NCBI GenBank assembly: GCA_000310025.1
Contig: FN649727.1
Location: 680,821 to 744,820, forward strand
DNA: 64,000 bases
From: Ectocarpus siliculosus
Lineage: Eukaryota > Sar > Phaeophyceae > Ectocarpales > Ectocarpaceae
Reading direction: 5' to 3'
The translations under genes were made by a program, and so were the position numbers. Every line of letters begins with the position of its first letter. The first letter of the stretch is position 1. Positions 5,722-63,582 of the stretch are shown in pieces. The notes beneath the pieces were generated by a model. It was not told where the DNA came from and did not search any database. It saw nothing but the letters and a program-made list of their open reading frames with translations.

Positions 5722-5734
5722 TAGGTGATGAAGT

Positions 5735-6849: not shown

Positions 6850-6921
6850 GTGCCATACCGTGGGAGCTTGGTGGACTCGGTAACCTCGTGAAGCTGCATC
6901 TTGACCGCAACAAGCTGTCCG
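6850..6921 (+). CDS. LRR exon cassette upstream of the ROCO relic
   Basis: A 72-nt, phase 1-1 exon between a tttgcag acceptor and a GTAAGC donor. It encodes one 24-residue LRR: GAIPWELGGLGNL followed by VKLHLDRNKLS. About 300 bases of upstream intron (about 6540-6849) and 100 bases downstream closely match the introns of the cassettes at 57472 and 56517. It therefore shares an origin with the 55-64 kb LRR gene. Whether it was ever spliced into the ROCO transcript or is a remnant of a separate LRR gene cannot be told from sequence; about 2.7 kb separates it from the next recognised exon. Confidence 0.75.
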
Positions 6922-10032: not shown

Positions 10033-10116
10033 GAAACATTTTTTTAGTCACGGCGGGTGGTAGCCACCTGCCGAGAAACATTTTTTTAGTCCCGGCGGGT
10101 GGTAGCCACCTGCCGT
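10033..10116. repeat. Two 42-bp direct copies, each with a hairpin
   Basis: Units starting GAAACATTTTTTTAGTC occur at 10033 and 10075. Each contains CGGCGGGTGG-TAG-CCACCTGCCG, a near-perfect 10-bp stem. It lies in a ROCO intron; function unknown. Confidence 0.75.
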
Positions 10117-10609: not shown

Positions 10610-10749
10610 CTCGCGCCAGAGCATGAAGGCCAATGAAGCAACTCCCGGCTCGTCAACAAGTCTGACGGTAGTCTCCGAGGAAGTCAGATGGTCCTTCCTC
10701 GCAGCTGGGATATTTCCCTCGCTGTTCTGGAAGCCCTCGAGCATGGAAG
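10610..10749 (+). pseudogene. ROCO exon: Roc remnant with NKSD (G4) motif
   Basis: The 5' part, in the frame delivered by the upstream exon, reads S-SRQSMKANEATP, which follows the P-loop in this family. The 3' part reads, in another frame, RLVNKSDGSLRG then LPRSWDISLAVLEALEHGR, where NKSD is the GTPase G4 motif. The segment that should carry G2 and G3 (DxxG) is absent between them. The last codon is completed correctly by the next exon (AG+A, then DPVEVV), which confirms the second frame. Confidence 0.75.
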
Positions 10750-11910: not shown

Positions 11911-12117
11911 AGATCCCGTGGAGGTGGTACTGCGCAAGTCGCCTGACCGTGACAGAGAAGACGCGACGGAAACGGCTAGAGGCGCGATAGTCGTGTATCA
12001 GGGGTTCACGGTCGAGGACCTCAGCAGCAAATGGCAGAAAACAGTTGATGAGCTCAAGAGGAGAGGGATTACGGTCACAAACGCCGAGAATGCTTTGGAA
12101 GGAGCTCTCTCAATCAG
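11911..12117 (+). pseudogene. ROCO exon: Roc-COR linker
   Basis: Acceptor gcttgcctag, donor GTAGAC. It encodes DPVEVVLRKSPDRDRE.. and ends TNAENALEGALSIR, with an open frame throughout. Phase 2 at the donor is completed by the next exon (AG+G, then EFDGSLIRHEK). This exon itself looks undamaged. Confidence 0.8.
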
Positions 12118-12391
12118 GTAGACATATAAGATTGGCATTCCGATACGGAGACCACCTTTTCAACGACATGGTGAGGCCGACTGGAAACTAGATCGTTACG
12201 AATCGCTGCCATTCGGTATTGTGCATCGCTTCGCGAAGAAGAAGAGTGGTGGCCTCGAGTATGGTGTCGACCTCGTTCCGGAGGAGATGTGCGTAGAATG
12301 CCGCTGGCTCAATAATCTGAATGCTTTGGGATTTTATCCTGGGTGGATACTGCCAACTCGATCTTTTGACTTTACAACGTTGTGCATGCAG

Positions 12392-13160
12392 GGAGTTCGA
12401 CGGATCCCTCATCCGCCACGAGAAGTTTGTCTTTCTGGACGTGGTTTGGCTGGCAAGAATCCTGAAACCATTGCTCAACCACAAGGATCAAGAGACCTTT
12501 GATGGCCTCGTGAATCTTGGGGATACGGGTGACGCGCGCATTACACTCGACGATCCATCAGACATTGCTTCGTGGGACCGACTCAAGAGCCAGGGCGTGC
12601 TTGAACCCAGGTTGGGGTATGCCATCTGGCCTAACGGTCTGTCCAAGTACGTTATATCCCAACTCTTGCGTTTTGGGGTCTCACTTTTCCGCTCTAGGAC
12701 GATCCGGCTGAGGACGTGGTAGTTCTGCTGAGGCTAAACCCAGAGCGACCCGAGAGTGTGGGCCACGTGATCGACACATGCTGTTTGGAGCACACCCCGG
12801 CACTCAGCGCCAGTTGGAAGATATTCCTCGGTGTACCGCCTGGTGCGATTGGAGAGGTGTTGACACGGTGCTGCGGTCTTGGTGGTGTGCGAACATTCTG
12901 GCGATATGGGGTTCTTGTGCACGGTGGCCTCGGGGAACTAGGTCAGTGTGGGATATTCGCTGTGGTCTTGGAATACTCTTCCATGGACAATGAACTTGTT
13001 GCTCAGATTTTCGGCGATATCAGCACTCCAGCTCCGTGGGTGGCGCTGTCATACGTCGTGACTGCCGTGAGCTTTTATGCTGAGGGATTTCCCAGGACTG
13101 CGCTGGAGAGGCTCTCTGACGTGTCCTCAGCATGGTGACACGATGCTATTGGCGAACAAG
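12392..13160 (+). pseudogene. ROCO exon: COR domain
   Basis: It starts EFDGSLIRHEKFVFLDVVWL, a hallmark COR start, continues through NGLSKYV, and then changes frame near 12690 to DPAEDVVVLLRLNPERP. It carries on through FLGVPPGAIGEVLTRCC and APWVALSYVV. A second frame change near 13070 leads to FMLRDFPGLRWRGSLTCPQH and GDTMLLANK before the GTGAGC donor. CPQH may pair with CPKC of the next exon as a zinc-ribbon-like site. Confidence 0.8.
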
Positions 13161-13682
13161 GTGAGCCCCGTTACGTAATCCGGAGTCCCAGGGGGTTGAA
13201 GCGCACAGTTTATGGCACAATCGATTTTGTCAGCAATTGACCTTGGACTTTACTTTCTTGTATGCATTCGGCACAGGTATCTTGCTTGTTTAAGCGTTGT
13301 ACCGTGTGTCGTCTAGTTTGAGAAGAGTTTTTTTACGTGCCTTCTTTTATTTCGTGACTTCCTAGCATTTTCCCCGCGGCAACCCCTCGAGTTGCAGTGT
13401 ACCGCTTTGAAGGACTGCTGCAAACTAGCACCAACTCACCGCGGTGGTGGTTTCGGAACCTGTATTTGCGCAATTTGAACGCTTTGGGAAAGCATTGATG
13501 GATTTGGTACGGGCACGTTATTGCAGGGCTATGAGTCTTGATTTAGTCATTCAGAAGTACATTGTGTCGTTCGGTGAGCGTGGTGCGGCTGTGGTTTAAA
13601 TATGAATGTGTGCGTTTCACGGCTGATCTTTCACATTGACAACAACCAAGACATATTTACCACACGGCACATCACTTGTCAG

Positions 13683-13806
13683 GCGACTGACGCTGGAGAC
13701 ACTTTTCTGTAACGGCGCGCATGCCCAAAGTGCAGTCCCGAAACCAGGGGGCTCGGGGCCGCGGCCATCGATCTGGTGCGCATGGTCGACATCCGTCTGG
13801 GCCGAG
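13683..13806 (+). pseudogene. ROCO exon: CxxC/VRMVDIRL segment
   Basis: Acceptor cttgtcag in phase 0, donor GTATGC in phase 1. Reads ATDAGDTFL, then an in-frame TAA, then RRACPKCSPETRGLGA and IDLVRMVDIRLGR. The split codon G+AC joins correctly to the exon 4.8 kb downstream (DVIFDEAKARF). Confidence 0.75.
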
Positions 13807-14580
13807 GTATGCATGACCAATGGCGAGGAGTACGGTGCAAGGGCGAGTGGACGCAAAGGGGAGTGCCATTGGTTTCGAGTCATCTCCAACTTGATCTTGG
13901 TTGACATCCCCGGTGCGATATTAACGACTCACGAAACATCTCGAATCCCTGCGCGGAAAACTATTTCACTTTTTTGGTTGTGCCAACCTCACGCACACTC
14001 CTGTGCAAAAAGCCCCAATTACGTTGAACGAAGTCATTCCGGCGATAATGGTATTTGTATTCATTTCCCGCATGCAGTGTCTCCGACTCTACGATACCGA
14101 ACGAATCGCAACGTACACCTAGTACGCGTGTACTCCTGGCCCGGAGTCTGCGATTGTTCGTTACGAACGAGCACAGCAGCATACGAAACACACCCACATG
14201 ACCAGAAAAAGCAACAGAGCCGCTCTTTGAAATGCCGTGACGTGCGAGTGGTGACCAACAGGGTAGACGGCGAGTTGGTTGAGGCTGTGTGAGAAGAACG
14301 AAGAACGACACAGCAGTTCGTTGAAATATCTCCTGTTTTTCTTGTAGCTTTCGTCTCGGCTGTCCGAGGATCTAATTTGTTCATGTGCTTGCATGAGTGA
14401 TTTCCATTCTTTCCACCGATACAATGAAGATCTGGAGCAGGTCTACGAGTTGGCGGCCACACTACGATGCATACTCCAATGGGGTCCCGAAAAAAAATCG
14501 CGAGACGAACATATTGCAAGAAGATTTTGCAGCCCAGCATGTTCCCGGAACCTACTTGCGATGGCCCGAAACTAATATTT

Positions 14581-17500
14581 TTCGGCAATGCTATTTGCTC
14601 CACCGGTGGAGTAAGTTCTTATTTGCTACCCCAGGTAGATCTCCACCCACAGAGCTCCAATCGACCTCAAACCAATTGCATCGTGTAGGTATGGGCTACA
14701 GCTATCTGCAATGCTACTTACAAGCTAAATTTGACCGGGGGCGGCAGAGATATGCTGAAAAAGGGGATTCCGCAGCATCCCAGGAAGCAGCAATCGTCTG
14801 GAACCTCCGTCCACACCGCTTCAATTGACCTCAAATTTTTTTCATTGGGTGTGCACGGTCCATGCCGTTTTTTTAAGCTTTCGGACACTCACTTCCGATA
14901 TATTCCCGCAGAGATATGGTCACCCGGGGGGGTTCCGCAGCATTTGGGGGGGGGGGGGGCGTAACTGGCAATAGTCCCGCTATGCCTCCCGCCACATAGC
15001 TGAACCACGCCTATCTCGGCCCGCATCGTGTTGGCACGGCTCACAGCTATCATTCAAGCCATCCTCCACCCCAATCGGACCAGTGGGTGCAGAGAAACGC
15101 CCCCACGCGGGGGCTCAGTGGGTCAAGGGCCGAGAAGCTTATAAGCTTATCTGCTCCACCAGGTCAAACTTCATCTACCGGGCGCTGGTTGTCTTACGAA
15201 GACTTGCCTTGTGTTGGCCCGGCTCACAGCTGTCATACAAGCCATCGGACACCCCGATCGAACCAATGGTGGCAGAGGAACACCCACCCACGGGGGTTCA
15301 GTGACTCAAGGGCCGATGGAGCAGAAGAGCTTAACTGCTTGTATTGTGTCGGCACGGCTCACAACTATGATTCAAGCCACCGGACACCCCAATGGGACCG
15401 GAAACGCCCACCCATGGGGACACAGTGACTCAAAGGGCCGGTGGAGCAGATAACCTTAACTGCTCCACAAGGCCAAACTCCATCTACCAGGTGCTGTTTG
15501 TCTCAAGAAGACATCCATTGTGTTGGCCCGGCCCGCAACTATCATACAAGCCATTAGACACCCCAATCGGACCTGTGGGTGCAGAGAAACCCCAACCCAC
15601 GGGGGCTCAGCGGCTTAAGGGCCGGTGGAGCTTAACTGCTCCACCAGGCCAAACTCTATCTACACCGGGCGCTGATCGTCGTACGAAGACTGTGACAGGA
15701 TATAGGCACCCCCTGGATATGGGAAATTTTCTTAAACGGGCTCCCCTCCGGGCTAACGGGCACTCCTCCCCACCCACCCCGACGAACGGGCACCCCCCCA
15801 ATAACGCCCCCCTCCTGGTGGTTTGGGGCACTCCCTCTCAGCTAACGGCACCCTCCGTCAACAACGGCCACCCCACCTACACTGTCGGTACTCCTCTCTG
15901 CTCACGGACACCTCTTGGCGCCGTGTTCGGACGGTGCAGTGCTCTGTATGTAGTATACACTGTATTTGTTGATCAGATACGCTAAACACTGCATTCCCTG
16001 AGCAGATTCACTGTATTCCCTCATCAGATACTCCGTATTCCCTCGCTCGTTTCACTGAATTCCATAATCAAATAAATTGTATTCCCTGGTCAGCATCACT
16101 GTATTTCCTTATCCGATACACAGTGAGTGCTCGTCGTACTTTTCACTGTATTCCCTGAGCAGATTTACTGTGTTCCTTCATCAGATACACCGTATTGCCT
16201 CGTTCGTTTCACTGTATTCCCTGATCAAATACACTGTATTCCCTGGTCACGATCCCCGTATTCCCTCTTCAAATACACTACCGTGTTCCTTGTACTTTTC
16301 ACTGTATTCCCTAATCAGATTCAATGTATCCCTCATCAGATGTGGACGCCGTGGAATGCAGTGAATTTGATGAAGGAATACAGTGTATCTGATGAGGGAA
16401 CACAATTAATCTGCTCTGGGAATACGGTTTATCTGACAAGGGAATACCGTGTACCTGCTCTGGGAATACAGCGTATCTGATCAAGGAATAGAGTGTATCT
16501 GACGAGGGAATACGGCGATTCTGATCAGGGAATGAAGTGAATCTGGTAAGGGAAACATTGTATGTGATGAGGGAATACAGTGAATCTGCTCAGGGAATAC
16601 AGTGTATCTGACGAGGGAATACAGTGTATCCCCTCAGCGAATACAGCGTGTGTGATCTGGGAATACAGTGTATATCCCATGACAGCGTAGTATGTGATGA
16701 GGGAATACAGTGAATGTGACTAAAGGATACAGTTAATGTGACGAGGAAATGGCTCAGAGGCCACATATCTGCTCCGTCGGCCTTTGGGCGATGAGTCCCC
16801 ATGGGTGGGCGTTTCCCTGCACCTACGTGTCCCATTGGGGTGCCCAATGGCTGGCAGTGATAGATGTGGGCCGGGCCAACACAACGAATGTGTTTTTGAG
16901 ACAAACAGCGCCCGGTGTAGATAGAGTTTGGCCTGGTGGAGCAGTTACGCTTATCTGCTCCATCGGCCCTTGAGTCACTGAACCCCCGTGGGTGGGTGTT
17001 CCTCTGCCACCACTGGTTCGATCGGGGTGTCCGATGGCTTGTATGATAGCTGTGAGCCGGGCCAACACAAGGCAAGTCTTCGTAAGACAACCAGCGCCCG
17101 GTAGATGGAGTTTGGCCTGGTGGAGCAGATAAGCTCTTCTGCTCCACCGGCCCTTGAGTCCCTGAGCCCCCGTGGGTGGGTATTCCTCTGCCACCACTGG
17201 TTCGATCGGGGTGGAGGATGGCTTGTATGACAGCTGTGAGCCGTGCCCACACAATACAAGCCGTAGTAGGATAAACAGTACCCATAACGAAGATTTGGCC
17301 TGGTGGAGTATTTNNNNNNNNNNNNNNNNNNNNNNNNNNNNNNNNNNNNNNNNNNNNNNNNNNNNNNNNNNNNNNNNNNNNNNNNNNNNNNNNNNNNNNN
17401 NNNNNNNNNNNNNNNNNNNNNNNNNNNNNNNNNNNNNNNNNNNNNNNNNNNNNNNNNNNNNNNNNNNNNNNNNNNNNNNNNNNNNNNNNNNNNNNNNNNN

Positions 17501-18106
17501 NNNNNNNNNNNNNNNNNATTTTGGCCTGGTGGAGCAGATAAGATTTTTTGCTCCACCGGCCCTTGACCCATTGAGCCCCCGCGTGGGGGCGTTTTTTTGC
17601 ACCCACTGGTCCGATTGGGGTGGAGGATGGCTTGAATGATAGCTGTGAGCCGTGCCAACACGATGCGGGCCGAGATAGGCGTGGTTCAGCTATGTGGCGG
17701 GAGGCATAGCGGGACTATTGCCAGTTACCCCCCCCCCCCCTAGATGCTGCGGAACCCCCTCGGTTGACCATATCTCTGCGGGAATATATCGGATGTGAGT
17801 GTCCGATAGCTTAGAAGAACGGCATGGGCCGTGCACACACAATGAAAAAGATTTGAGGTCAATTGAAGCGGTGTGGACGGAGGTTCGAGACGATTGCTGC
17901 TTCCTGGCATGCTGCGGAATCCCCTTTTTCAGCATATCTCTGCAGCCACCGGTCAGATTTAGCTTGTAAGTAGCATTGCAGATAGCTGTAGCCCATACCT
18001 ACACGATGCAATTGGTTTGAGGTCGATTGGAGCTCTGTGGGTGGAGATCTACCTGGTGTAGCAAATAAGAACTTACTCAACCGGTGGAGCAAATAGCATT
18101 GCCGAA
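14581..18106. mobile_element. Fold-back element with tandem subrepeats (3.5 kb)
   Basis: Near-complete inverted symmetry. Ends TTCGGCAATGCTATTTGCTC (14581) and its complement (ending 18106) are flanked by TATTT at 14576-14580 and 18107-18111, a possible 5-bp target duplication in AT-rich sequence. From the outside in: about 420-bp unique arms (14581-15000 and 17690-18106); arrays of roughly 170-bp units rich in CTCCACCGGCCCTTGA-type sequence (about 15000-15690 and, inverted, 16750-17690); a GC-rich spacer on the left (15700-15960); and arrays of CTGTATTCCCTGATCAGATA-type units (16000-16350) facing their inverse (16360-16740). No transposase seen. It lies wholly inside the ROCO intron 13807-18627. 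The form resembles Drosophila FB elements; the family is unknown. Confidence 0.8.
17314..17517. other. Assembly gap (204 N)
   Basis: A run of N inside the right-hand tandem array of the fold-back element, as expected where inverted tandem repeats defeat assembly. The true array length is therefore unknown. Confidence 0.99.
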
Positions 18107-18627
18107 TATTTTTTGTTTTAAAGTCGTCACCTGATGGGATGACTCTGACCCTGTCATAAACACAATACATTCCTTTGATTTTGGTTTTCGAGCCTCTGTT
18201 CGATCGGCCCGACCTGTGCATTCACTCATTTTTTTCGGCATGTCTACATCTCTGTTTTGTTGGCGTCAAGTTGTGATCTTGGGTGATTAGCGAACGCCGC
18301 ATCTCCTGTGTTTTGGCCGGAGCCTAACTGAACGACTGTAAAATAATATTGGAAACATAACACGAGATTCTTGTCCGGTTGCGTTGCCTGCCCCGACGTG
18401 TCGTCTACTTTGACTTTGTGTTTGTCGCCTGTGTTGTACGTTTCGTTAAGAATCAGTGGGGGAGTGAAATTTGTGTTACCCAAATGCATGCATGTTTGAG
18501 ACCCCAGCTGAGTCCGATTTCGACCGTTGTCATGCTGCTGATGGGGGTTGCGAGCATGACATCGTTCGTAAGTAAAGAAACGGTTTCGGGCACTGAGTGA
18601 CTTGTCCCGCTCATTTTCGCTCGACAG

Positions 18628-18698
18628 ACGTGATTTTTGACGAGGCGAAGGCGCGGTTCGACGTCGTGGGGGGTCAGTACGCCTTCCCTCGCCCGACG
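18628..18698 (+). pseudogene. ROCO exon: short linker
   Basis: A 71-nt exon (acceptor gctcgacag, donor GTAAGA) reading DVIFDEAKARFDVV and GGQYAFPRPT after the codon split with 13806. The frame is open. The split-codon match across 4.8 kb supports a single gene spanning the fold-back element. Confidence 0.75.
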
Positions 18699-19249
18699 GT
18701 AAGAACGGGTTTCATATCCTGAGTGGTACAGACGTGTGCATTGTCGAAAACCTTGGAATGATTGTGCCACAAGAACGCGTGTTCTCCAACTACACCCGCT
18801 AGGGAAAACCAATGTTTCTTATTCTATCGACAAACGATGCCCTTCGAACGAGCCCATTCACATCGATATCTGGGCTAATACAGCAGTCTTTCGACCATTC
18901 ATCGTGAAGCGTTGGGATGGCGTTGATTCTCGCTGATCGTGGCGTATGGCGATCGATATGGTATTTTTCGAGTTCAACAGCTCTGTAGTCAGCGGGGCAG
19001 AACGGGTGTGCACTACGCCATCGCAACAATTACGTCCTGAGAAAACCTGTTGTGAACGGGGGCGTTAGGATACATGTCGCATTTCTTTTCGCTGTTGGGT
19101 GCCTTCTACCCCTTGTTTAAGGCTGGTAGTTGTGTCATGCACCGTCGAAGACAGAATCGTTCTGAAAAGTGACATCGTGAACTACGTTGTGAAAATAGCT
19201 GCTCAATTTTGTTATGCTGTTACCTTTCCCTGCGTCATGTGCGTCACAG

Positions 19250-19840
19250 GGTAGCTCGAAGGATGAGGACAAGTTGGTTCGAAAGATCGACGACGTGGCC
19301 AAAGCGATGAAGGGGGGTTCAACGAGGTGAAGGTTCAGATGAAGGAGGGGTTTGGCGATGCCAAGGCCGGGTTTGATGACACCAAGGCTGGGTTTGACGA
19401 CACCAAGGCCGGGTTTGACGAGGTTAAGGCCACGGTTGACGAGCTCAAGGGAGGGTTTGGCGAGGTACAGGGCGAGATGAAGAGAGGGTTTGACGACACC
19501 AAAGCTGAATTCGGCGATGTGAAGAACGAGTTGGCCATGGTAAAGAAAAAACTGGACAAGGTGGCAGAGAGCACCCAGGAAAGCCTCATGCACCTCAAGG
19601 ACTTGCAGGCCCCGAACTACCCCTACCCTCACCTTGTGGTCGTAAAGGAGGTTGGATCTAATGGCACCTCGTCGAACGCTCATGGCGTCAAGAGATGGCT
19701 GGGCAAGCTTCGTGGCGTGGGGAAGAAAGACATGACGCTGCACTTCTTGTGCCCGGTCGACATGACTACGGTATGGTGGCGAAGGCTATCGGTTTCAGGA
19801 GAAGCGTGGCTGGGTGAAGAAAGTATCGCCGGTGATTCAG
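19250..19840 (+). pseudogene. ROCO exon: heptad-repeat and LCPVDM region
   Basis: Starts GSSKDEDKLVRKIDDVAKAM, loses frame at a G-run (about 19313), then continues with about nine seven-residue units of the type GFDDTKA or GFDEVKA and a tail KNELAMVKKKLDKVAES, a predicted coiled coil. Then PHLVVVKEVGSNGT, VKRWLGKLRGVGKKDMTLHF, LCPVDM and, after another frame change, GEGYRFQEKRGWVKKVSP. Donor GTAGGA. The 21-bp coding units are a minisatellite that could vary in number between alleles. Confidence 0.8.
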
Positions 19841-20084
19841 GTAGGACAAGGGTTTTGCCACTTGCAGTAATTGCGTTGTTTGGGTTCTACGCTGCTGAGT
19901 CACCCCTACTTTAGCTCAAGTCGCACTTCGAACGACGAATTTTCCCTGTGCGAAACATGATTTCATTTATGACTTTGAATATAGCGACTGCGTCGCGGAA
20001 GTATGCCTTGAAACGTGAGCAATATTGAACTGTGGTGAGTTTCTTTTAGCAACCTCGTAATGTATGTGTTTGCTCTCTTCCCAG

Positions 20085-20435
20085 GTGGCGGTGGTGACCG
20101 CAAACGTGGCACTGAAGGCGACGACAGGAGTGGACGTGGATATGTCGCATTTCCTGAAGGGCGTGAAAGATGGGTTGGTCGAGGAGGTGGTCGACCGTAC
20201 TCTCGACGAGGACGCGCTGCTTCGCGTCATATCGAGCGAGGAAGATATCGGCGCGGGCATGCAACAGGATGCAAGGGCCTCGTATGAAGCGGTGAAGAAA
20301 TGTATGGAAAAGGAGGAATTCAGCAGGCGTAAGACGGCCAGGCGTGGTGATGGGTACATTGACTTCAGGGACGAAGTAACGCGTGTAACCGACGGGAGGG
20401 GGCGGATGGAGTGGGTCCGGAAGAGAAACGTTTAA
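20085..20435 (+). pseudogene. ROCO C-terminal exon
   Basis: Acceptor cttcccag; open to TAA at 20435. Reads VAVVTANVALKATTGVDVDM, then DGLVEEVVDRTLDEDALLRV, and ends MEWVRKRNV. It is intact and well conserved in reading frame. Helical C-terminal region of the brown algal ROCO family; no enzyme motif. Confidence 0.8.
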
Positions 20436-21850
20436 TAGTGGTTGGACTCGCATTCTATTGCTGCACCGACGAGCTAGATGCCGGGCTTTTAGGGGTGTGC
20501 AGCGTACCGTATGCACAAGAAATCATATGCCGTAGACGTAGCTTTTTCGTTCTGCAGATTCTTGTTGGAAGACAGGATACAGACAAGCACGCCGCCCGAA
20601 ACAGCACGTGTTGGGCGTGCAACCGACAAGAGGGGGGTGGTGGTGTTGGGTTCGTAACAAAATTTGCAATATGTGGTTGGAGTTGGATTCGGTTGCTCGT
20701 TCTGCAGACTCTTGTCGGTAGACAGGGGGTGCAGACAAGCATTGGAAGTCGACAAGAGACGAATCGAAGAACTGGGCGAATGCGCGCATCAGTTCCCGAC
20801 CCTACAACGGTGGTCAAGGACAACAAGCTGTAAGAAGGGCCAAGCGCCCAGCGCGACTTCCGTCACCCATAAAGTGGCGGTGGTATACGCCGAGAGGCCA
20901 ACTCTGTTCTCAGCATTGTTTTCGGTAACTTTTTTTCCCCCGCTATCGTTTGGGCTCTCGCACGAACTGTACAGCAGTTCGTTTCATTAGTTGTTTTTTT
21001 CCTTTCGTGTTTGTGTGTTTAGTGGGGTCGCCCCCTTGCGATCACCTTATGATCACCGATTCGCCCTACCTAGACGGCGTGGGTGCGGTTGCCCTGTCGC
21101 TGAGGGAATACATAACGGCTGTTGTCCGGTTGTCGGAACTCGTATCACGTACCCTTCCCTACAGCGAGTTGCACACGGTAGACGGACCTTTCACTCCCGT
21201 ACAATGGGAGCCTCACACACACCGCGATCACAACAAAGGCAAGCACCTAGGCATTAAACGGCCGTTGGTTCGTCGCATCAGCTCCGGTCTGCGCTGTCTC
21301 TGCTCTCTCTCGCACACGCTGGACCGGGTTGATCGCATGTTGGGGTGGCGTTTTGTGTGGATTGTTGTACACATGGCCAATGTGCGTGTGTGCTTTTGTG
21401 TTGGGTTTCCGCTTTGTCTCTTTCTGGGTCTCTCGGCATGTTATCCCTCTTAGGTGAGGCACGTCCCCGATCTTTCGGCGGCACAAAAGTAATCGGAGCT
21501 GCACACAATATATGGTATCATACGTGTCACCTTAACAATCGACCTCTCCAGCGACGACAACTACGTGTCAAGGCACACGCCAGATACCACACCACTTTAT
21601 TGTATTTTTCCGAAGTGTCATTTTTATTATTATTTTCCGCGAAGTCTGGAAGGTAACTCTCTGGCCAATAACGAGGGGAGGACACCGGTCGCTTCCCTCT
21701 CTCCTCCAGAGTCCAAGTTCCCCTTCCATGTCAACTGGCAGGCCCTAACAAAATGCCGTCTCAGTACACCGAGACCCCCAATGGTACTCCATACCATTGA
21801 CATCCACCAACATCGACGTTTAGTGGGATGGCATTCTGTCCCTTTGCCCG
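20436..21850. other. No gene recognised; short direct repeat
   Basis: Related 60-80-bp segments (TCTGCAGAYTCTTGTYGGWAG-type) recur near 20555 and 20698. An open frame at 20950-21453 (+) has no recognised domain. Nothing else supported. Confidence 0.45.
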
Positions 21851-50569: not shown

Positions 50570-52140
50570 GCAGAGTAGTCCAGCTTTGAAAATCGATCTT
50601 GGAGGTGTCGTATCCTATGCGACCTGGAACGGAATATTAAGACTCCCGACTTAAACCGCGGCGTTCTCTAGGTGCAGGGCGGGCTACCTTGGAATTTATG
50701 GAGCGTCGGGGAACAATGTGTATGTGCGGCAGCAGTATTGCCGGCATCGTGTTGACGTGCAATACGTTAGTCCGGCTAGCGGTCCGCGATTTGTCAAACG
50801 ATCCTTCTATCACTGAAATTGGTGAGCTACAAGCAGGATTGTTTAAGCTGCTGTGCGGTTCGATTTTGAAACGCTTCAAGCACACCGTGGACGCGATTCA
50901 ACTTTACGGAATGTCAGCGCAGCTTTTCTCATACATCCTACTCGTGGCCATAGTCGATTTGAATGCCTGAGGTCATGTATATGTACGTAGGTCCAGCCAC
51001 AAGCAAAGGTACTTGAAGCGTTTCAGAATCGGAGCGCACAGCATCTTCAAAAGTCCTGCTTGTAGCTCACCGATCTCAATGATAGAAGGATCGTTTGGCA
51101 AATCGGGCACCGTTAATCTGTGGTGTATCGCAAGGGCTAAAATCTCAGACACTAACATTGCATAGGAGGGGAGGTCAGCGGACGGTGAATTTGCGGTTGC
51201 TATTTTGTACTGGAGGTAGATTTTGGAAAACTCAGACGTGCAGGTGTTTCCTAGAAGTACTGCGTACCCAGTGCCCCCTAAATGACAGGGGGGTCTGTAA
51301 CGGTTTCACGCTCGACGGAAGCTACCAGAATGGCTCGCTGCTTTTTTGTAAAGCGTGGTCCTGATCGGCACATGCAGTAGACTCCAGGCGATCCTCTCGT
51401 GTGAGCAACACTTTCCTTTCTCACCAAAAACTGTCCTGGTCATCGACACGCAATACCTGGCCCTTGCATACCGATCGAACTCGTGATAGATAGTGGCGGC
51501 TTTCGTTGAATGAGCACGATACAATTACGGTCTGACAGAGAGTGATTACGGTATTCAAAAATAGCTGTTTCGCTCTGACGTTTGAAGAGGATCAAGTTTC
51601 CCCAACGTCCGTCGAGGGTGATTCCCTCACATTGGCGTCGCGGTGACATGTCTGATTTGATGACACAACACAACAAATCTTGGCGCTGTGCACGGGCAGA
51701 CCTGGAATGCCGGGGAAGGTGTGATACACGAACGTACCCGCAATCCGTCGAGGTCTTGAGGTCTTAACTGAAGAGCTAGTGGGAGAAGATTGGACGCGCG
51801 GACGTTAACACCTCGGAGAACACGCGTGAACACCCGTGCGCTCGAAACGACCAGCGAGGTGGTCAAAACGCGTTCCACATCCCATCAATTACAGCAACAT
51901 CAAGAAAGAGAGTGCCCGCTGCAGCGCCACGCTAGCAGTTGCTCTTCTCCCTACACCGTTTGTGACGTGGCTATGGGCGGCATATGGCCCTCCTCCGTGC
52001 CCCTTCCGACGAGCTAGGGTTCGCATATTGCCGTCCCCCACGCTCCTTCTTGCGTGGCTAGGGGTACACGACCATTCGGGTGTGTTCTTTGACTCCGTCA
52101 TTTCCCGCTGTTGCAATGGTGGCCGTCTGCTATGGTGGCC
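50570..52140. repeat. Segmental duplication block B, copy 2
   Basis: Partner of 2890-4400. It contains the better-preserved inverted pair. The + frame at 50689-50970 reads DPSITEIGELQAGLFKLLCG and ILKRFKHTV. The minus frame at 51158-50973 reads DPSIIEIGELQAGLLKMLCA and PILKRFKYL. The shared peptide in opposite orientations shows a duplicated exon-like unit. Confidence 0.75.
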
Positions 52141-54185: not shown

Positions 54186-54396
54186 ATGTCAACGGCCGTT
54201 TTCCCTCGATGCAACAAACACTGCTGCTTCCGGCTCATTGTTGGGGGACAGCGTATGGCATGGACAAGAACCCTAATTGTGTATGTATTGTCCTTCTCGT
54301 TGACAATTGCCTCCGTGTCGAACTTCCTCAACAGAGTCATGACAAGCACGAGTCAGACACCGATGGCGTCATCAGCAGCTCCGCTGAATGCACCAG
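54186..54396 (+). CDS. LRR gene exon 1: hydrophobic leader
   Basis: ATG at 54186, alternative ATG at 54255. The stretch RTLIVYVLSFSLTIASV (residues 28-44) follows basic residues. From Met24 this would be a classic signal peptide; from Met1, a signal anchor. It is followed by a Ser/Thr/Ala-rich linker ending LNAPG. The donor GTAAAC in phase 1 exactly fits the acceptor of exon 2. Confidence 0.6.
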
Positions 54397-57300
54397 GTAA
54401 ACCTTTTAGAACTGGAAACACCTCCATGCTCTGGTAAAAGCCGTGTTGGGTATTTATGTATTCCCCCAGACGCCCGAAGAGGACCTTGAAAGCGATTGTG
54501 ACCTTCTTGAGGTCGTCCCGTGGTTGAACTCTTTTGTTTCACTCTCTGTTTCACTCAATGGTTATGTCACCTGCCCGTGCAGAAGCACCGTGCGATTTAC
54601 GTTGTCAAAAACTTTGACATACATGCCGATGTGCTCTGATCGCCTTGAACAGGCTCGGCGGAGACAGATCTCGAAGTTCTCCGTCACTTTTTTGGAACGA
54701 CGGGCGGGGAGTCGTGGACACGTCAAGAGGGCTGGGCGGAGAATGCAGACGACCTCGGCAGCTGGTACGGAGTCACGTCGAACGCAGAGGGTCGAGTGGT
54801 GAAGTTGGAGCTGCATGGAGAAAGAGATGAGTTTGACATTCCCACCGGCAACAATCTCACCGGTGAGACCAGGGAGAACGTAAGCGAGATAAGTTTCTAT
54901 CGACCATCTCATGGGCTTCAGCACATCTGTTTATCTCTCCATGTTCCATGGGCAGTCAATAAAAGTGTACTGGGGCCTGTTCATGGTCTATGTCTACAGC
55001 GTTACAGAAATTGCAAATGTGGCGTTTAGCTGTTGGTGTGGATTCCACAAATGATGCACCGTTCGTTCACTAGAACCGCGGTTGGCGAAACCGGTTCTTG
55101 CGTTCGTCTCCCAGGCGTACCTCCCGTCGATGACCACGTATGTCTTGCCCAACCGTGGTCCTCGTGGATTTATACACTTGCTTTATTCGGGTAAGGTGGT
55201 TGGGTTGCTACGAGTGTGCACATCGTTCGTTGCTTTATTGTTCTGGACGTTGTGCGATCTTTTTGGAGTATCACGAGTCGTCGTCTTGTGATCCTGCCGT
55301 GTGGAGGTGTCACGATGCCTAGACGCCTGTAAACGGATGATGGGCCATTGTTCCACCGTTCATGTTCTTTCTTCTGCTTCAGAGGAGTTGTGTGTAATCG
55401 GTTGCCATCTCGTTCTTGTGTCGTCTACCGCACCATTCGCGTACAACACTAGCGTTGCAGCCGGGTCAATTGTTGCTGAGGATCTGGGCCGGATATGTTG
55501 GTATGTGTTCTTGCTGGTGCTGTTTTCAGGTTCCATACCGCCGGAGCTTGGTGAACTCGGTGCTCTTGAGGTACTGGATCTTTGCTGGAACAATCTCTCC
55601 GGTAAGCAAGGCCAGTGCACGCATGGGTCACAGGTTGGGCCACAGGTTGGCACGCATCCTTGGCGATTGTAAACCTCGTGTTTTGCAAACGACAAAGATC
55701 ATGCGGACATTGTCTTGAGGCGTTGTCGTTGGGTGTGGTGAGCCATCTGGTGGTGTATAACAGAGGCGTGGCGAGGTATATGGGCGTGGTGCTCTGGAGG
55801 CGCTTGGACAAGCAAGATATTTCTTCGCCTCGAGTGCATGAGACTGTGTAGGTTATGTGTGATGACTACGATACTTGTCTAGACTGACGAGTTGTTGCCA
55901 ACCTTCCGACCTCAAGATGCATTATGGAAAGAAGGAGGGTGTCACGGTGTGAATGTGAGGTGCGATTGACGAACATTGGACAGATGCATGCCGTTGAATA
56001 TGTTATCCTTCGGCACTCATGTTTTTTTGTCGTGCTTGCCAATTCGATGAGTCCGAGTTCGCGTTTGGACCGTTGTCGGTGAACCTCAAACCTTCAACTG
56101 TGTGACGGCCCTCGAGTCGAACGCCAGTTTCGGCAACTGATGCTGCTCGCCATGATCCCGCAAGACCGTGCTCCGGGTGGATTTCTCTGAAGTTGGAGCC
56201 CATGGTTGTGGTCTAGTCGTTGGACGACTTGCGATGTTGTCGGAGTATTGAGTATAGTCGTGCTGGGGGCGCTCCTTGTGGAGTTGTCACGAATCCTAGC
56301 CTCCTGCAATCGGGTAATGGGCGATTGTTGCTCTCTACCCTTCGTGTTCTCTCTACTGCTTCAGAGGAGTCGGGGCATTTTCGGTCGCCACTGTCGTTGT
56401 TATGGCTTCTACCGCACCATTCACTCACAACACTAGCGTTACAGCGGGGTTAATTGTTCCTGGGGATCTGGTCCGGATATGTTTGTGTGTGTTGTTCTTG
56501 CTGGCGCTGTTTGTAGGTGCCATACCGCCGGAGCTTGGTGGACTCGGTGCTCTCAAGGTGCTGAATCTTCGCAGTAGCAGGCTGTCCGGTAAGCAAGAGT
56601 AGTGTTTTCATGGGTGACAGGTTGGGGTCACAGGTTGGCTCGTGTCTTTGGCGGTTGTAAACCTCGTGTTTGGCCAACGCCGAAGCGCGTTCGGACATCG
56701 TCTAAGGCGTTGTCGTTGGTTATGGTGAGTCATCGGGGTGTGTGTGACAAAAGGCGCACCGAGATGGATGGTGTGTGTGTGCGTGGTGTTCCCCAGGCGC
56801 TTGGTCAAGCAACCTAATTCGTGGCTCGAGTGGATGAGACTGTGCAGGATATGCTTGGTGACTACGATACTTGTCTAGGCTGACGAGTTGTCGCCAACCT
56901 TTCGACCTCAAGGTGCACTATGGAAAGAAGGAGGGTGTCACGGCGTGAGTGAGAGGTGCGATTGACGAACGGTGGGCAGATGCATGCGGTTGAATATTGT
57001 TCTTATGGGTCCCATGTTTTTTTGTGTCGTTGCTCGCCGCTTGGATGAGTCCGAGTTCGCGTTTGGACCGTTGTCGGTGAAACTCAAAACTTCAACTGTG
57101 TGACGGCCCTCGAGTCGAACGCCCATTTCGGCAACTGATGCTGCTCGCCATGATCCCGCAAGACCGTGCCCCGGGTGGTTTTCTCTGTTGGAGTCCACGG
57201 TCGTGGTCTAGTCGTTGGACGACTTGCGATGTCGTTGGAGTGTTGGGTGTGGTGGCGTTGTGGGCGTTCCTTGTGGAGCTGTCACGAAGCCTAGCCTCGT

Positions 57301-60300
57301 GCAAACTAATAATTGGCAATTACGCTTGTGCGCCCTCCTTGTTCTCTCTGTTTGTTCAGAGGAGTTGGGGCATTTTGGCGTACAACACTAGCGTTGCAGC
57401 CCGGTCAATTGTTGTTCAGAATCTGGCCCGGATATGTTTGTGTGTGTTGTTCTTGCTGGTGCTCATTGCAGGTGCCATACCGCCGGAGCTTGGTGGACTC
57501 GGTGCCCTCGAGAAGCTGCGTCTCAGCAACAACCAGCTCTCCGGTAAGCAAGACCGGTGTTCGCATGGGTGACAAGTTGGGGTCACAGGTTGGCTCGCGT
57601 GTTTGGCGGTTGTAAACCTCGTGTTTGGCCAACGCCAAAGCGCGTTCGGACATTGTCTTAAGGCGCTGTCGTTGGTTATGGTGAGCCATCGGGGTGTGTG
57701 TGACAAAAAGCGCACCGAGATGGATGGTGTGTGTGTGCGTGGCGTTCCCCAGGCGCTTGGTCAAGCAACCTAATTCGTTGCCTCGAGTGGATGAGACTGT
57801 GCAGGATATGCTTGGTGACTGCGATACTTGTCTAGACTGACGAGTTGTCGCCAACCTTTCGACCTCAAGATGCGTTACGACAAGGAGGGTGTCACGACAT
57901 GAGTGTGCGGGGCCATTGACGAACGGTGCGCAGATGCATGCGGTTGAATATTGTTCTTACGGCACTGGTGTTTTGTGTTTCGGCTCGCCGGTTCGATGGT
58001 GTGTTCGGAAAGTTGGTGTGAAAACCCCACAATTCCAATTGTGTGATGGTCCTCGAGTCGAACGCCAATTTCGGCAACTGATGTTGCTTGTCATGAACGT
58101 GCATGACCGTGTCCCAGGTGGTTTTCTCTGAACTTGGAGCCAATCATTTTCGTGTGATCTAGTGACGGGATGTGTACCGCCTTGGCACATGGCTGCACGA
58201 GATTGACGTTTGCACTAAGTTTGTGTCGCGCTCGGCCAGCGTGGTCGGGAGGTACACAGTTGTGAACGCTTTTCCGACGTTCAGCGGACTTACCTTGCGA
58301 GAGCATGGAAAGTGTTGGCGATGTCATGGAGAAGGGTAAGTGGCTCTCTCGTCTCTCATTATCTAGGTAGGCACCTAGATGCGGAGATGCATAGCCAGGA
58401 TGGGTAGGGTAAACCTGGTTGGCCGACCGTTGTACAACCATTAACGGACACACCATAGCATGTGGAGGGCAGGGTTCGATGAGGTGCAGGTTGATGTGGT
58501 CCATATTACTTGTGCGCCTGTCGTCTCGCTTGCATGCAGGCGCGATTCCATCGGAGCTGGGTCAGCTCGGGGCTATGAAGAAGCTCAAGCTTTGGAGGAA
58601 CAGACTAACCGGTGAGTAATTGCAAGCCAGCCTTGATCGGTCGGTGCTTTCGCTGCCAAAGGTTGCCCAGTTGCAACGTGGGTAGTCTGTATAGTTTTGG
58701 TGGAGTATCCGACAGCTGCTCCCTTGGCTGTCGAATTTGTTGTCGTCTACTGGTCTCATGGCGCAATACGAAAGTTTGCTGGTCGTGAAGTGTGCCAAGG
58801 AGATGCACGAGAGACTGATGACAAGGATAGCACCCCGAATCCAGTGGATCCACCTGTCACAACGGGTATGGTCCACCCTTTCTGGCATTTGGTGGTCGAG
58901 CCATGGGTAGGGCCTTCGTCCAATGCACACCTCGATGAGGTCGTTAACCCGTCGATTCGGCTATGGCGATGCGGGGGCTTACATCTGAATCAACGAATTG
59001 CATGTCAAGCGGTCTTGCCTGGTCATGGCGTAGTCGTTGGGTGATTTGCGATGATGTTGGGTTGTTGGGTGTGTTCGTGTTGTGGGCGTTCCTGGACTTG
59101 AAAGATGGGCGGTTGTTCTTGTGCACCCTTCTTGGTTCTCTCTAATCGGAGGAGTTGGGGCGTTTTTGGCCGCCAATTTTGTTGTTACGGCCTCTATCGC
59201 GTCTTTGACAGCCTCACGCTGGTGTTGCAATTGGGTCAGTTCTTACTGATGACGTGGTCCGCATGTGGTGGTGTGTGCTCTCGCTGGTGCTCTTTGCAGG
59301 TGTCATACCGCGGGAGCTTGGTGGACTCCGTGCTCTTGAAGTGCTGGATCTTCAAAACAACAGGCTCTCCGGTAAGCAAGATCACTGTGCGCACGGGTCA
59401 CCGGTTGGCTTGAGCCTCGGTTGTAAACCTCGTGTTTGGCCGACGCCAGAAAGCCGGTCGACGACGCGTTCGGTGTGGTGAATCATGGGGTGGTGCGTGG
59501 CAGAGGCGTGCCGAGACGGATGTTGTCTGTGGGCGTGGCGCTCTCCAGGTGCTTCGACAGTCAACCTTTTCCTTGGCCTCGAATGGACGAGACTCAGCAG
59601 GTTATGGTTGATGGCTGCGATACTTGTCTAGACTGAAGAGTTGGTGTGAGGTGCGATCGAGGAACGGTGGGTAGATGTTGCAGTGGAATTGTTTTCCTAG
59701 GCTGTAGTTTTATAGTGTTCCTCGCTGTTTTTTATAAGTCATCGCCGTTTCGTTGAGTACATTCCGCGTTCGTAGCGTTGGGGAGACTTATATACTCAAA
59801 TTGTGACCGGCGTATTGTTGTCGTCTACTGACTTCATGGTGCAATACTACGGTTTTCTTGTCGCAAAGTGTCGCGGCAAAAGCGACGCCGTCTGCTAAGG
59901 CAAGGAACACCCAGAATTCAGTTAATCCACAAACACAACGGGTAAGCTCTGCCCCCTCTGGCGCCGGTGGTCGAACCATGGGTAGGGCTTTCGTCCACTG
60001 CACACCTCGAGGAGGTCGTGAACCCGTCATTGCCGCTACGGCCAGGCGGGGACTCACATCTGAATCAACGAATTGCATGTCAAAAGGGCTTTTCATGTTA
60101 GTGTCCTTTATAGTCTTGAGACGACTTGCGATGTTGTGGAATATCAGATGTGGTCGTTTTGTGAACGGTGAGTAGGTGTCACCAATCCTACGCTCCTGCA
60201 AGTGGGTGATGGACGTTTTTCTTGGTGACCCTTCTTGTCTCTACGCTTTTGCAGAGGAGTTGTGCATGTTTCGGTCGCCAGTTTCGTTGTCATGGCCTCT

Positions 60301-63300
60301 ATCGTATTTGAAAATCTCAAGCTGGCGTTGCAACCGGGTCAGTTCTTGCTGTTGATGTGGTCCGCGTGCCGTCGTGTGTGTTGTCGCTGGTGCTGTTTGC
60401 AAGTGTGATACCCCGGGAGCTTGGTGGACTCGGTGCTCTTCAGAAGCTGGATGTTAACTTCAACCAGCTCTCCGGTATGCAAGCCAAGTGTTCGCATGTA
60501 TCATAGGTTGGGGTCACAGGTTGGCTCGCCTGTCGATTGTGAACCTCGTGTTTACGCCGGGGATCGTGTGGACGTTGTCTTGAGTCGTGGTCGTTGGGTT
60601 TGGTGAGTCATCGGGTGGTGTGTCACAGCGACGTGCCGAGATAGTGTGCCTGGCGCTCGCCAGGCGCGTGGACAAGCAACGCAATTCTAGATACTAGGCA
60701 GGTTTGGTTGCCTAGGCTAAACACTTGTGGCCAACCTTACAACCGCAAGAAGCACGACGACAAGATTAGTTCCACGGCGTGAGTGTGAGGTGCGATTGAC
60801 GAACTGTGAGCAGATTCATGCAGTGGAATTGTTTTCCAGCGGCAGTGGTGTTTTTCAAGTGTTTTTGCTCGCCGCTTCGATGAGTCCGATTTCGCGTTCG
60901 GAAAGTTGGTGAGTCTCAAAACTTCAATTGTGTGACGGCCCTTGAGTCGAACGCCGATTTCGGCAACTTCGAATGCTTGTCGCGAACGTGCGCGACCGTC
61001 CCGCGTGGGTTTCTCTAAACGTGGGGCCAATCATTTTCGTGCAAGTTTGTGACGGGGCGTGTACCGCCTCGGCACATGGCTGCACGAGATAGGCGTTGCC
61101 GTTAAGTGTTCGTCGTGAATGGCCAGTATTGACAGTTATAAACGCTATTCCAACGTTTAGCGGGGTTACCTTTCTGGAGATCGCGGAAAGCGATGACGCA
61201 GTCGTGGGAAAGGGCAAGTGGCTCTCGCCTCTCTCATCATCTAGGTAGGCACCTTGATGTGGGGATGTGTAGCCCAAACCACAATGAACAGGATAATGCT
61301 AATCCTTTTTCGCCGAGAGGCGTACAACCGTCAGCGGACACACCATGGCTTGTGGAGGGCAGGGAGCCGGTTGCATGAGGCACAGGTTTATGTAATTCAA
61401 ACACCTTGTGCGCCTGTTGTCTTGCTTGCATGCAGGCGCGATTCCATCGGAGCTGGGTCAGCTCGGGGCCATGAAGGAGCTGAGACTTTCGATGAACGGC
61501 CTAACCGGTGAGTTTAAGCAAGTGTTTTTTTTATGAGGTGATGCATTCGCTGCCATTTTGCTGTTAGGCTGGCGGCGTGAACGGTCTGTTTCTACAGTTT
61601 TGATGGAGTATCCAGCAGCTGCTTGTTTCCCGGCGTGGGGTTGTCGCCTACTGCCCTAACGGTGCAATACAAACGTTTGCTGGTCGCGAAGTATACCAAG
61701 AAGAGTGGCATAAGCGACCCGTCTGCCAAGACAAGGAAAGCACCCCAAATCCAGATGATCCATGTGTCACAACAGGTATGCTCTGCCCCCTCTGGCATGT
61801 GGTGTTGGTGCCATGTCTAGGGGCTTTGTCGACTGCGCACCTCGATGCGGTCGTGACCCGCTGTTTCCGCTACAGCCATGCGGGGGCTCACATCTGAATA
61901 AACGAATTGTACGTCAAACGTGGGAAATCGTCGTGAAGGTGTCACGAAGCCTAGCCCCCTGTAAACGGATACTTGGCAGTTGCTCTTGCGTCCTTCTTGT
62001 TGTCTTTTTTTCTTCAAAGGAGTTCGCGTAGTTGGAAGCCTCACGCTGGTGTAGCATCCGGGTCTCTTCTTGCCGATACTGTGGTCCGTGTATTGTGTTC
62101 TCGCTGATGCTGCTAGCAGGCGTCATACCGCGGGACCTTGGTGGACTCCGTGCTCTTGAGACGCTTCATCTCAGCAACAACCAGCTCTCCGGTAAGCAAG
62201 ACCGGTGTTCGCATGTGTCACACGTTTGGGTCACAAGTTGGCTCGCGTTCTTGTTGGTTACCAGCCTTGTTGGATGTAAACTTTGTCGGTTATGAACTTC
62301 GTGTTTGATCACCGGCAAAGAGCGTACGGACATTGTCTTGGTGCGTGACCGTTGGGCCGTTGGGTTGGGTGAATCATGAGGTGGCGTGTAACAGAGGCGT
62401 GCCGAGATGGATGTTGTGTGTGGCCGTGGCTCTCCCCAGGCGGTTGGGCAAGCAAACTAAGTCTTTGCCTCGACTGCATAAGACTATGCAGGTTTTGGTT
62501 GGTGACTATGATACTTGTCTAGGCTGAACAGTTGTCGCCAACTTTTGGACCTCAAGATGCACCATGACAAGATCAAGGGTGTCACCGCATGAGTGTGAGG
62601 TGCGATTAACCATCGGTGGGCAGATGCATGCAGTGGGTGTTGTGTATTATAGTATTCTTCTAGCCGCTTCGATGAATCCGATTTCGCGTTCGAGGAGTTG
62701 GTACGTCTCAAACCTCCATTTGTGTGACGGCCCTCGAGTCAACCCCCAATTTCGGTAACTGAAGTTGCTTGTCATGAACGTGTGTGACTGTGTCCCAAGG
62801 TGGCGTTCTCTAAACGTGGAGCCAATTATTTTCGTGTTTTCTTGTGACGGGACGTGTACCGCCTTGGCATATGGCTACACGAGATTAGTGTTGGCATTAG
62901 GTGTTGGTCGCGCATGGGCAGCTATATAGCAGGGTTTCACATTTGTGAATGATACTCCGATTTGTAGCGGTATTACCTTTCGGTATAGTGCAGAAACTGA
63001 TGACGCGGTCGTGGGGAAGTGCTCTCTTTGTCTCTCATCATGTCGGTAGGCACCTAGTGTGGAAAGAGTTCTATTTACGGTCTGTTAGTGACGATTTAGG
63101 TCGGGTCGGATGTTGAACCTAGGCTCCGCACATGGACACGGTGGCCGAACCAACCCAACCTAGCCCTAACCCTCACCCACGGCCAACTGCCGCGAACTGG
63201 CCGAGAACGCGGCTGCGCCACGTTGTCAGATTGCGGGACAGAAAGAGGGCGCGGGAGAGTAGCCTACCGCCCGAACCAACGCTCGACCAATCAGAGGACG

Positions 63301-63582
63301 TAAAAGCCCGTAGATGCAAAGAATCACGAACAGACGGAAAAAACTCCTGAGCCCAAACCAAGATGGACAAGGTTATCCTTTGTCGCCGACAGCGATGCAA
63401 CCATTAGCTGACACGCCATGTTTTTTTCCAGGACAGCGAACTATTTGCGATGAGGTGTAGGTTTATGTGGTCCAAGCAACTTATGCGCCTGCCGTCTTGC
63501 TTGCATGCAGGCGTGATTCCATCGGAGCTGGGGCTCCTCGGGGCTTTAAAGTCACTAAGACTTGCGCGCAACAGCCTAACGG
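54186..63582 (+). CDS. LRR protein gene with signal/membrane leader and LRR exon array (5' part)
   Basis: Exon 1 (54186-54396) encodes a hydrophobic leader, exon 2 (54653-54862) an LRR N-cap, followed by nine 72-nt LRR exons. All joins are phase 1 (codon G|GN), so the frame stays open through eight of the nine LRR exons; that at 60403 has lost its AG acceptor and would have to be skipped. The predicted product is a secreted or type II membrane LRR protein of at least 70+70+8x24 residues. The 3' part lies beyond the window, so the C-terminal domain (kinase, ROCO or none) is unknown. Introns are 0.7-1.3 kb and repetitive, built from duplicated modules. LRRs of the plant-like GxIPxELGxLxxL type bind peptides or other proteins. 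Brown algal members are proposed immune receptors; that role is inference here. Confidence 0.7.
54653..54862 (+). CDS. LRR gene exon 2: LRR N-terminal cap
   Basis: Acceptor cgccttgaacag, donor GTGAGA, both phase 1. Reads SAETDLEVLRHFFGTTGGES, WTRQEGWAENADDLGSWYGV, TSNAEGRVVKLELHGER and IPTGNNLTG. The GGxxW..W..WYGV..N..GRVVxLxL pattern is the cap that precedes LRRs in plant and brown algal proteins. Confidence 0.8.
55530..55601 (+). CDS. LRR cassette 1 (type A)
   Basis: 72 nt, phase 1-1, acceptor gttttcag, donor GTAAGC. Backbone GSIPPELGELGAL; variable part EVLDLCWNNLS. Confidence 0.85.
56517..56588 (+). CDS. LRR cassette 2 (type A)
   Basis: 72 nt, phase 1-1, acceptor tttgtag, donor GTAAGC. 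Backbone GAIPPELGGLGAL; variable part KVLNLRSSRLS. The LRR asparagine is replaced by Ser. Confidence 0.85.
57472..57543 (+). CDS. LRR cassette 3 (type A)
   Basis: 72 nt, phase 1-1, acceptor cattgcag, donor GTAAGC. Backbone GAIPPELGGLGAL; variable part EKLRLSNNQLS. Confidence 0.85.
58540..58611 (+). CDS. LRR cassette 4 (type B)
   Basis: 72 nt, phase 1-1, acceptor gcatgcag, donor GTGAGT. Backbone GAIPSELGQLGAM; variable part KKLKLWRNRLT. Flanking introns are of the B module. Confidence 0.85.
59300..59371 (+). CDS. LRR cassette 5 (type A)
   Basis: 72 nt, phase 1-1, acceptor tttgcag, donor GTAAGC. Backbone GVIPRELGGLRAL; variable part EVLDLQNNRLS. Confidence 0.85.
60403..60474 (+). pseudogene. 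LRR cassette 6 (type A), acceptor lost
   Basis: The coding part is intact (GVIPRELGGLGAL then QKLDVNFNQLS), but the acceptor reads GCAAGTG where the others read GCAGGTG, so AG is gone at the proper position. Using the shifted AAG would break the frame. The donor is a weaker GTATGC. Probably skipped. Confidence 0.7.
61436..61507 (+). CDS. LRR cassette 7 (type B)
   Basis: 72 nt, phase 1-1, acceptor gcatgcag, donor GTGAGT. Backbone GAIPSELGQLGAM; variable part KELRLSMNGLT. Confidence 0.85.
62120..62191 (+). CDS. LRR cassette 8 (type A)
   Basis: 72 nt, phase 1-1, acceptor gctagcag, donor GTAAGC. Backbone GVIPRDLGGLRAL; variable part ETLHLSNNQLS. Confidence 0.85.
63511..63582 (+). CDS. LRR cassette 9 (type B)
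   Basis: 72 nt, phase 1-1, acceptor gcatgcag, donor GTGAGT. Backbone GVIPSELGLLGAL; variable part KSLRLARNSLT. Last cassette before the window ends; intron sequence continues to 64000. Confidence 0.85.

Follow-up and report, generated by a model that had tools for sequence, protein, structure and literature searches.

How does a brown alga come to hold many different leucine-rich repeats (LRRs) in one kind of receptor gene? The question is raised by a stretch of 64,000 nucleotides of Ectocarpus siliculosus (contig FN649727.1 of assembly GCA_000310025.1; C2:680821-744820), hereafter the window, which carries a series of short LRR exons, or cassettes, and which we analysed together with the 189 Mb of genome searched. 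Passages of Teng et al. 2024 (PMC11378527) report, for brown algal LRR-ROCO genes, LRR exons of 72 bp, alternative splicing and sites 14, 16, 18 and 19 under positive selection; the focal gene resembles these in having one LRR per 72-nt exon, a single intron phase, a ROC domain and then a segment in the position of COR after the LRRs, and the selected sites 14/16/18/19. The same paper cites a 2012 proposal of controlled recombination as the means by which brown algae shuffle their LRR exons and states, in the parts covered here, that neither somatically recombined ROCO loci nor V(D)J-like site-specific recombinases have been reported. Taken alone, the focal array is one more, probably broken, member of this known family. 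The surprising part lies in its sister arrays, where exons running in both directions and a shared dyad give a hint of how LRR repertoires are shuffled.

A search pattern built on the 5' skeleton of the cassette occurred at 297 places in the genome and at 0 for the reversed control, so that the cassette pattern is not due to chance. The census, which took in 291 of these 297 places, delimited 40 arrays of three or more cassettes, some of which may be other LRR genes. Cassettes stood on both strands in 19 of the 40, the focal array not being among them. Fifteen of the 19 were fetched, chosen because they were mixed (L036-L045 and L052-L056, on C4, C5, C9, C11, C15, C16, C26, C234, C476 and C477), and in all of them cassettes of both strands are intermixed, at intervals mostly of 200-300 bp. 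Neighbouring cassettes point the same way in 121 cases and in different ways in 137; orientation is random cassette by cassette. A profile search of six COR-linked mixed arrays returned 133 cassettes or remnants, intact in 67/74 cases in sense and 41/59 in antisense orientation (Fisher p 0.003). Most antisense cassettes have stayed intact, as they would if cassettes turned round often compared with the pace of their decay; faster antisense decay is seen in one array.

What moves between these arrays was defined by matches of at least 94% identity over at least 80 nt, within and between ten mixed arrays; such matches are non-independent, given that copies of one unit match each other. The 165 matches comprised 142 with one cassette, 1 with two and 22 with none, single-cassette matches thus making up 142 of the 143 that bear a cassette. 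Copies stood in the same orientation in 76 matches and were inverted in 89, and 118 matches were 200-299 nt long. The median moving unit consists of the exon with about 100 nt of 5' and about 60 nt of 3' intron. Several units have copies on different contigs that show 100% identity across the exon and the 70 nt flanking it on each side, and within L037 the segments 5613-5887 and 7550-7824 are inverted copies with 275/275 bases identical, both lying between dyad sequences. The 15 arrays contain 39 cassette families with several members, of which 34 are spread over two or more arrays and 23 include copies in both orientations. These data show that recent movement in the sister arrays has mostly concerned single cassettes, in either orientation, often joined at the dyad.

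The dyad itself is a quasi-palindrome like CGCCNAYGCRTNGGCG, held by many of the gaps between sister cassettes. In 189 inter-cassette gaps its core, AYGCRT, occurs 188 times where 29.6 occurrences are expected from composition, and 99 of 237 breakpoint clusters fall within 10 nt of it (random mean 27.4, maximum 47 in 500). In 11 larger families with differing outer sequences, the consensus ends, compared by eye, reach the same half-site in about half of 22 ends. CGCCNAYGCRTNGGCG is present at 38 places in the genome and its control at 3; of the 38, 22 are no more than 1.5 kb away from a listed cassette, where 0.09 would be expected. Fifteen places lie more than 6 kb from cassettes; among the eight of these that were fetched and inspected (the other seven are on C1, C2, C12, C25 and C30), the place on C20 proved to be a further cassette, three on C158 and those on C83 and C455 belong to one unrelated repeat, and those on C138 and C271 have no cassette. 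With up to 2 mismatches allowed, a 24-base form of the dyad gave 72 matches, against none for the control; 70 of them are no farther than 1.5 kb from a listed cassette, the remaining two being at the later-found cassette on C20 and, on C80, 6.3 kb from the nearest listed one. Part of the array specificity of this longer form reflects shared descent, since it includes intron sequence of the cassettes. A general miniature inverted-repeat transposable element was set aside as source of the dyad, since CGCCNAYGCRTNGGCG has so few places in the genome and most of them near listed cassettes. The dyad site was not found in the focal array (AYGCRT 11 times versus 8.1 expected), nor was it seen with a crude pattern at TPR-type exons in six fetched stretches. 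A separate repeat with a perfect palindrome, CGCCGACGCGTCGGCG, is present at L057, L060 and L061 and is not tied to LRR cassettes.

The two halves of the dyad at each joint were compared in the 100 of 258 neighbouring pairs that have exactly one AYGCRT core (158 being left out), for 17 family-ends. Within family and end, agreement in the pyrimidine is 0.865 for the half-core belonging to the unit (chance 0.514, permutation p 0.0005) and 0.512 for the half-core of its partner (p 0.51). Each unit retains its half-site irrespective of what lies beside it, which suggests that breaks fall at the dyad centre and that different ends join one another. From these junctions we infer a site-associated cut-and-join, that is, a recombination, of single LRR exons. 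With regard to a candidate enzyme, an intron-blind search at E <= 0.001 for recombinase families gave one place for PF00589 (tyrosine recombinase, G000:C76:55488-55793) and one for PF00239 (serine recombinase, G000:C16:5122087-5122275).

Several observations weigh against so simple a reading. Of the 237 breakpoint clusters, 138 lie farther than 10 nt from AYGCRT, those that stem from copies of the same unit are not independent of one another, and the core is absent from 59 of the 189 gaps. Neighbour pairs recur in 30 of 144 cases (random mean 10.7, maximum 24 in 500 shuffles), from which it follows that blocks of cassettes are at times also copied together. This recurrence would suit an explanation of the both-strand arrays as assembly artefacts or ordinary inverted duplications, as would the N gaps of the assembly and the ability of near-identical units to mislead assemblers. 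Such an origin is nonetheless unlikely in view of an orientation that varies at random per cassette, of unit ends that meet a shared sequence above chance and of the half-site that each unit keeps. The more frequent breakage of antisense cassettes (18/59 versus 7/74 in the six arrays) also speaks against it, but this excess rests on L038, without which intact cassettes number 48/53 versus 34/42 (p 0.23). Somewhat less improbable, though still a minority position in our estimation, is that the sister cassettes are very short transposons of one family, bounded by terminal inverted repeats, and that the AYGCRT core represents their target-site duplication. Sister units are indeed discrete and dispersed, and at least one, that at L037 5613-5887, has clear terminal inverted repeats (GCGTTGGCGTCCAC...GTGGACGCCAACGC). 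The core of a target-site duplication belongs, however, to the site, yet it is the unit's own half-core letter that is kept and not its neighbour's; moreover, beyond about nine bases the unit ends differ between families, as judged by eye.

The content of the cassettes points to selection for diversity. Sites 14, 16, 18 and 19 were chosen before the test from the published positively selected sites (PMC11378527), and selection was measured by counting against introns as neutral yardstick, with uncorrected distances and without a codon model, in five disjoint pairs of focal cassettes. Non-synonymous difference at these sites amounts to 28.0/49.7 = 0.564, compared with 513/2045 = 0.251 in introns, 29.0/91.8 = 0.316 at synonymous sites and 15.0/177.7 = 0.084 in the backbone; the ratio of exposed sites to introns is 2.25 [1.71-3.31], with Fisher p 4e-6 versus introns and 0.004 versus synonymous sites. 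In the sister arrays, the 49 of 84 disjoint pairs with flank divergence <0.15 (the 35 at 0.15 or more being left out) give 0.195 for exposed sites, 0.039 for flanks, 0.037 for synonymous sites and 0.015 for the backbone, a ratio of 5.0 [3.9-6.5]. In the focal array, residues taken to line the concave face changed at about double the rate of the introns around them, on a conserved scaffold. The diversifying selection on exposed codons proposed in the sequence-only reading is thereby upheld.

That LRR surface positions are generally tolerant is established knowledge, and the same variation might reflect plain tandem-repeat evolution without special selection, exposed positions varying through lack of constraint. 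This would gain from a wider sister set of 67 pairs with flank divergence 0.02-0.3, in which the exposed/flank ratio is 3.06 and synonymous change runs at 2.05 times the flank rate, so that flanks are there an imperfect neutral yardstick. The case for selection is also tempered by the size of the focal test, whose fifth pair joins both unit types and is strongly diverged at synonymous sites as well (14.2/19.7). Relaxed constraint cannot, however, lift non-synonymous change above the neutral rate, which is exceeded in the focal pairs and in the 49 sister pairs alike, and we regard this explanation as improbable. An equally low probability is given to gene conversion that replaces exons with copies from other loci and, in place of point mutation and selection, would yield divergent faces within similar introns. 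Identical cassettes are present at different loci in the sister arrays, as such conversion would leave them; but whole replaced exons do not fit focal synonymous sites that are not clearly above introns (ratio 1.26 [0.78-1.68]) and a backbone below them (0.34), and the sister unit takes in intron on both sides, not the exon alone.

To which gene, then, do the focal cassettes belong? Downstream of the array stand the G-motifs of a ROC domain, with the P-loop GQEGAGKT at 67176 followed by DCAGQ and TKCD. The main ROC piece has 17 other genome matches at 81-54% and weaker ones beyond, 45 places in total with pieces counted apart, and a segment in the position of COR at 71220-71858 has 29 genome matches including itself and fragments, the ten best others at 83-76% identity. 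Pfam calls for caution here: Roc scored below the cut-off (14.1 bits, cut-off 27) and COR had no match, the LRR families being clear, so the ROC/COR assignment rests on the G-motifs and the matching paralogs. Beside this Pfam miss it may be set that COR went undetected by InterProScan in Teng et al. 2024 too, according to the parts of that paper covered (PMC11378527). On these grounds the focal array is very probably the LRR-coding part of a brown-algal-type LRR-ROC-COR (ROCO) gene, a judgement that concerns the focal gene, with joints between its parts that are putative. The attribution to brown algal LRR receptors made from the letters alone thus stands, in the form of the LRR-ROCO kind. A plain plant-type LRR receptor was set aside since ROC and COR-like segments follow the array; a kinase was not searched for. 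The protein would be a ROCO GTPase receptor whose LRR face may have bound variable, probably non-self, ligands.

The array itself was described beforehand as nine interchangeable cassettes at 55530-63582. All nine are there, and the total is ten, the tenth lying just beyond the end of the window; a both-strand profile scan of 104 kb (the window and 40 kb downstream) recovered the ten together with a further cassette at 6850, each of them on the + strand. Border check and profile scan together placed cassette 1 at 55530..55601 (SIPPELGELGALEVLDLCWNNLS), cassette 2 at 56517..56588 (AIPPELGGLGALKVLNLRSSRLS), cassette 3 at 57472..57543 (AIPPELGGLGALEKLRLSNNQLS), cassette 4 at 58540..58611 (AIPSELGQLGAMKKLKLWRNRLT), cassette 5 at 59300..59371 (VIPRELGGLRALEVLDLQNNRLS), cassette 8 at 62120..62191 (VIPRDLGGLRALETLHLSNNQLS) and cassette 9 at 63511..63582 (VIPSELGLLGALKSLRLARNSLT), each with AG/GT borders. 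Cassette 7 (61436..61507, AIPSELGQLGAMKELRLSMNGLT, likewise AG/GT) was located by strict and profile scans, cassette 6 (60403..60474, VIPRELGGLGALQKLDVNFNQLS) by the profile scan, the strict scan having missed it through its lost AG, and cassette 10 (64301-64372, AIPRELGGLGALEKLDFGCNKLS) by the profile scan of the window and 40 kb. Cassettes 4, 7 and 9 represent a second unit type. Each cassette encodes one LRR in 23 whole codons and one split codon, introns falling after codon position 1; an exon begins with two bases of the split codon and ends with one, so the loss of any cassette keeps the frame. The description of every exon as exactly 72 nt and phase 1-1 holds for the nine of ten with AG/GT borders in one frame and fails for cassette 6. 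Variation does affect exposed codons, as had been noticed, without forming the solid block of ten that was described: by eye it concerns mainly codons 13, 14, 16, 18, 19 and 21 of 23. The faces mostly differ between cassettes, as claimed, with the exception that 3 and 8 share SNNQ.

Ahead of the cassettes, on the + strand, a putative first exon of 211 nt (54186..54396) was read from the sequence and translated; in this predicted gene model it has an open frame from ATG, a GT donor and phase 1. It includes a hydrophobic stretch, TLIVYVLSFSLTIASVSNF, which could be a signal or membrane anchor and would be unexpected for a cytosolic ROCO protein. It is followed at 54653..54862 (+) by an N-terminal cap exon of the LRR domain (GSAETDLEVLRHFFGTTGG...NNLTG; 210 nt, phase 1-1), read by eye, which, when joined to cassettes 1-4, matches Pfam LRR_1 and LRR_8.

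Whether the focal copy still works is doubtful. Cassette 6 is preceded by AA instead of AG, and the next AG would give 71 nt and a frame shift, so that this cassette is probably skipped or frame-breaking. Near 71831 the COR exon is missing one base that each of the ten aligned paralogs has. The focal copy thus lacks the open reading frame of a working gene, and unless they are assembly errors the two lesions suggest a gene in decay: the focal copy is probably broken. Pseudogenes are described as numerous among brown algal LRR-ROCO genes in the covered parts of PMC11378527. The live repertoire that the sequence-only reading had seen at this locus is in consequence doubtful.

A second ROCO copy lies upstream within the window, where block matches pair 2906-4339 with 50607-52019, 8867-10645 with 66191-67919, 10645-12144 with 69429-70922 and 12171-13180 with 71019-72021 of the focal copy; the stretch equivalent to 67919-69429 is missing there. 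It carries a single cassette (6850..6921, +; AIPWELGGLGNLVKLHLDRNKLS, AG/GT; border check and profile scan) and, by sequence comparison, a COR-like segment at 12354..13175 (+) in two frames with an internal stop, and is broken. Ten cassettes versus one amount to a tenfold difference in array length. Self-comparison of the focal array matches 55244-57193 to 56221-58139 at 80.6% and 57388-59011 to 60322-61920 at 72%; cassettes 1, 2, 3, 5, 6, 8 and 10 form one unit type and the second unit type stands apart from it, intron divergence between the types being near saturation. These alignments show that focal exons multiplied in tandem blocks which took the long introns along, most recently in the case of cassettes 1-3, and selection would have favoured new LRR faces after each duplication. 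The second copy (window 2906-21253) belongs to a segmental duplication that extends over about 18 kb there and, at 50.6-76.6 kb, over about 26 kb. Behind each of the two COR segments lie open frames with GGFGDAKA/DDTK-like repeats (19267-19911 and 74753-75316), which may be a duplicated neighbour gene or a C-terminal part of ROCO. Farther on, at 92084-97963 in window numbering (L003-L004), long frames on the minus strand resemble, by eye, the reverse transcriptase and integrase of a long terminal repeat retrotransposon.

In bacterial shufflons and invertible-gene systems, segments in either orientation are joined at short sites. Unlike these, sister copies are spread between unlinked loci in a eukaryotic intron setting, and a dedicated recombinase is not linked to the dyad. 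The variable lymphocyte receptor (VLR) loci of lampreys and hagfish, as described in the parts covered of two papers, offer another likeness, with LRR cassettes in either direction around the gene (PMC3308329) and an LRRv module of typically 72 nt (PMC11335541). VLR cassettes are, however, templates copied somatically into an incomplete gene, whereas the algal cassettes each form an exon bearing its own splice sites; the focal array further departs from VLR loci in being one-directional, 10/10 cassettes lying on the + strand, both orientations being found in the mixed arrays of the census. The 90-bp LRR exon genes of Tetrahymena (PMC6564038) compare through nearly 50,000 equal-length LRR exons, more than 96% of them with introns in one phase, and exon shuffling, but differ in that the passages covered explain them by unequal crossing over, possibly with a LINE-like (long interspersed nuclear element) element, and have no dyad junction. 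Within brown algae, reverse-oriented cassettes did not turn up in a term search of the main text of Teng et al., nor does the junction sequence find mention in the parts of that paper covered (PMC11378527). A literature search aimed at brown algal LRR exons in reverse orientation or with palindromic joints brought up no report, Zambounis et al. 2012, which may describe either, lying outside its coverage.

Taken together, we consider it rather probable that some enzyme or repair process would cut and rejoin DNA at the dyad in the sister arrays and that the focal array would be an older type, expanding by ordinary unequal exchange. It is tempting to speculate further, with less confidence and more doubt than belief, on a eukaryotic shufflon in brown algae, in which single LRR exons with their own splice sites would carry equal half-sites (CGCCNAYGC) at both ends, a putative recombinase would join any of these ends at the central GC, and cassettes would invert, insert and spread between ROCO loci, only those in sense orientation entering the mRNA and those in antisense orientation forming a silent reserve.

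The proposal of controlled recombination has so far been without a signal sequence in the literature covered, and a junction with travelling half-sites makes the question testable. If the shufflon were true, and if it ran in body cells, brown algae would have built an adaptive-type repertoire independently of vertebrates.

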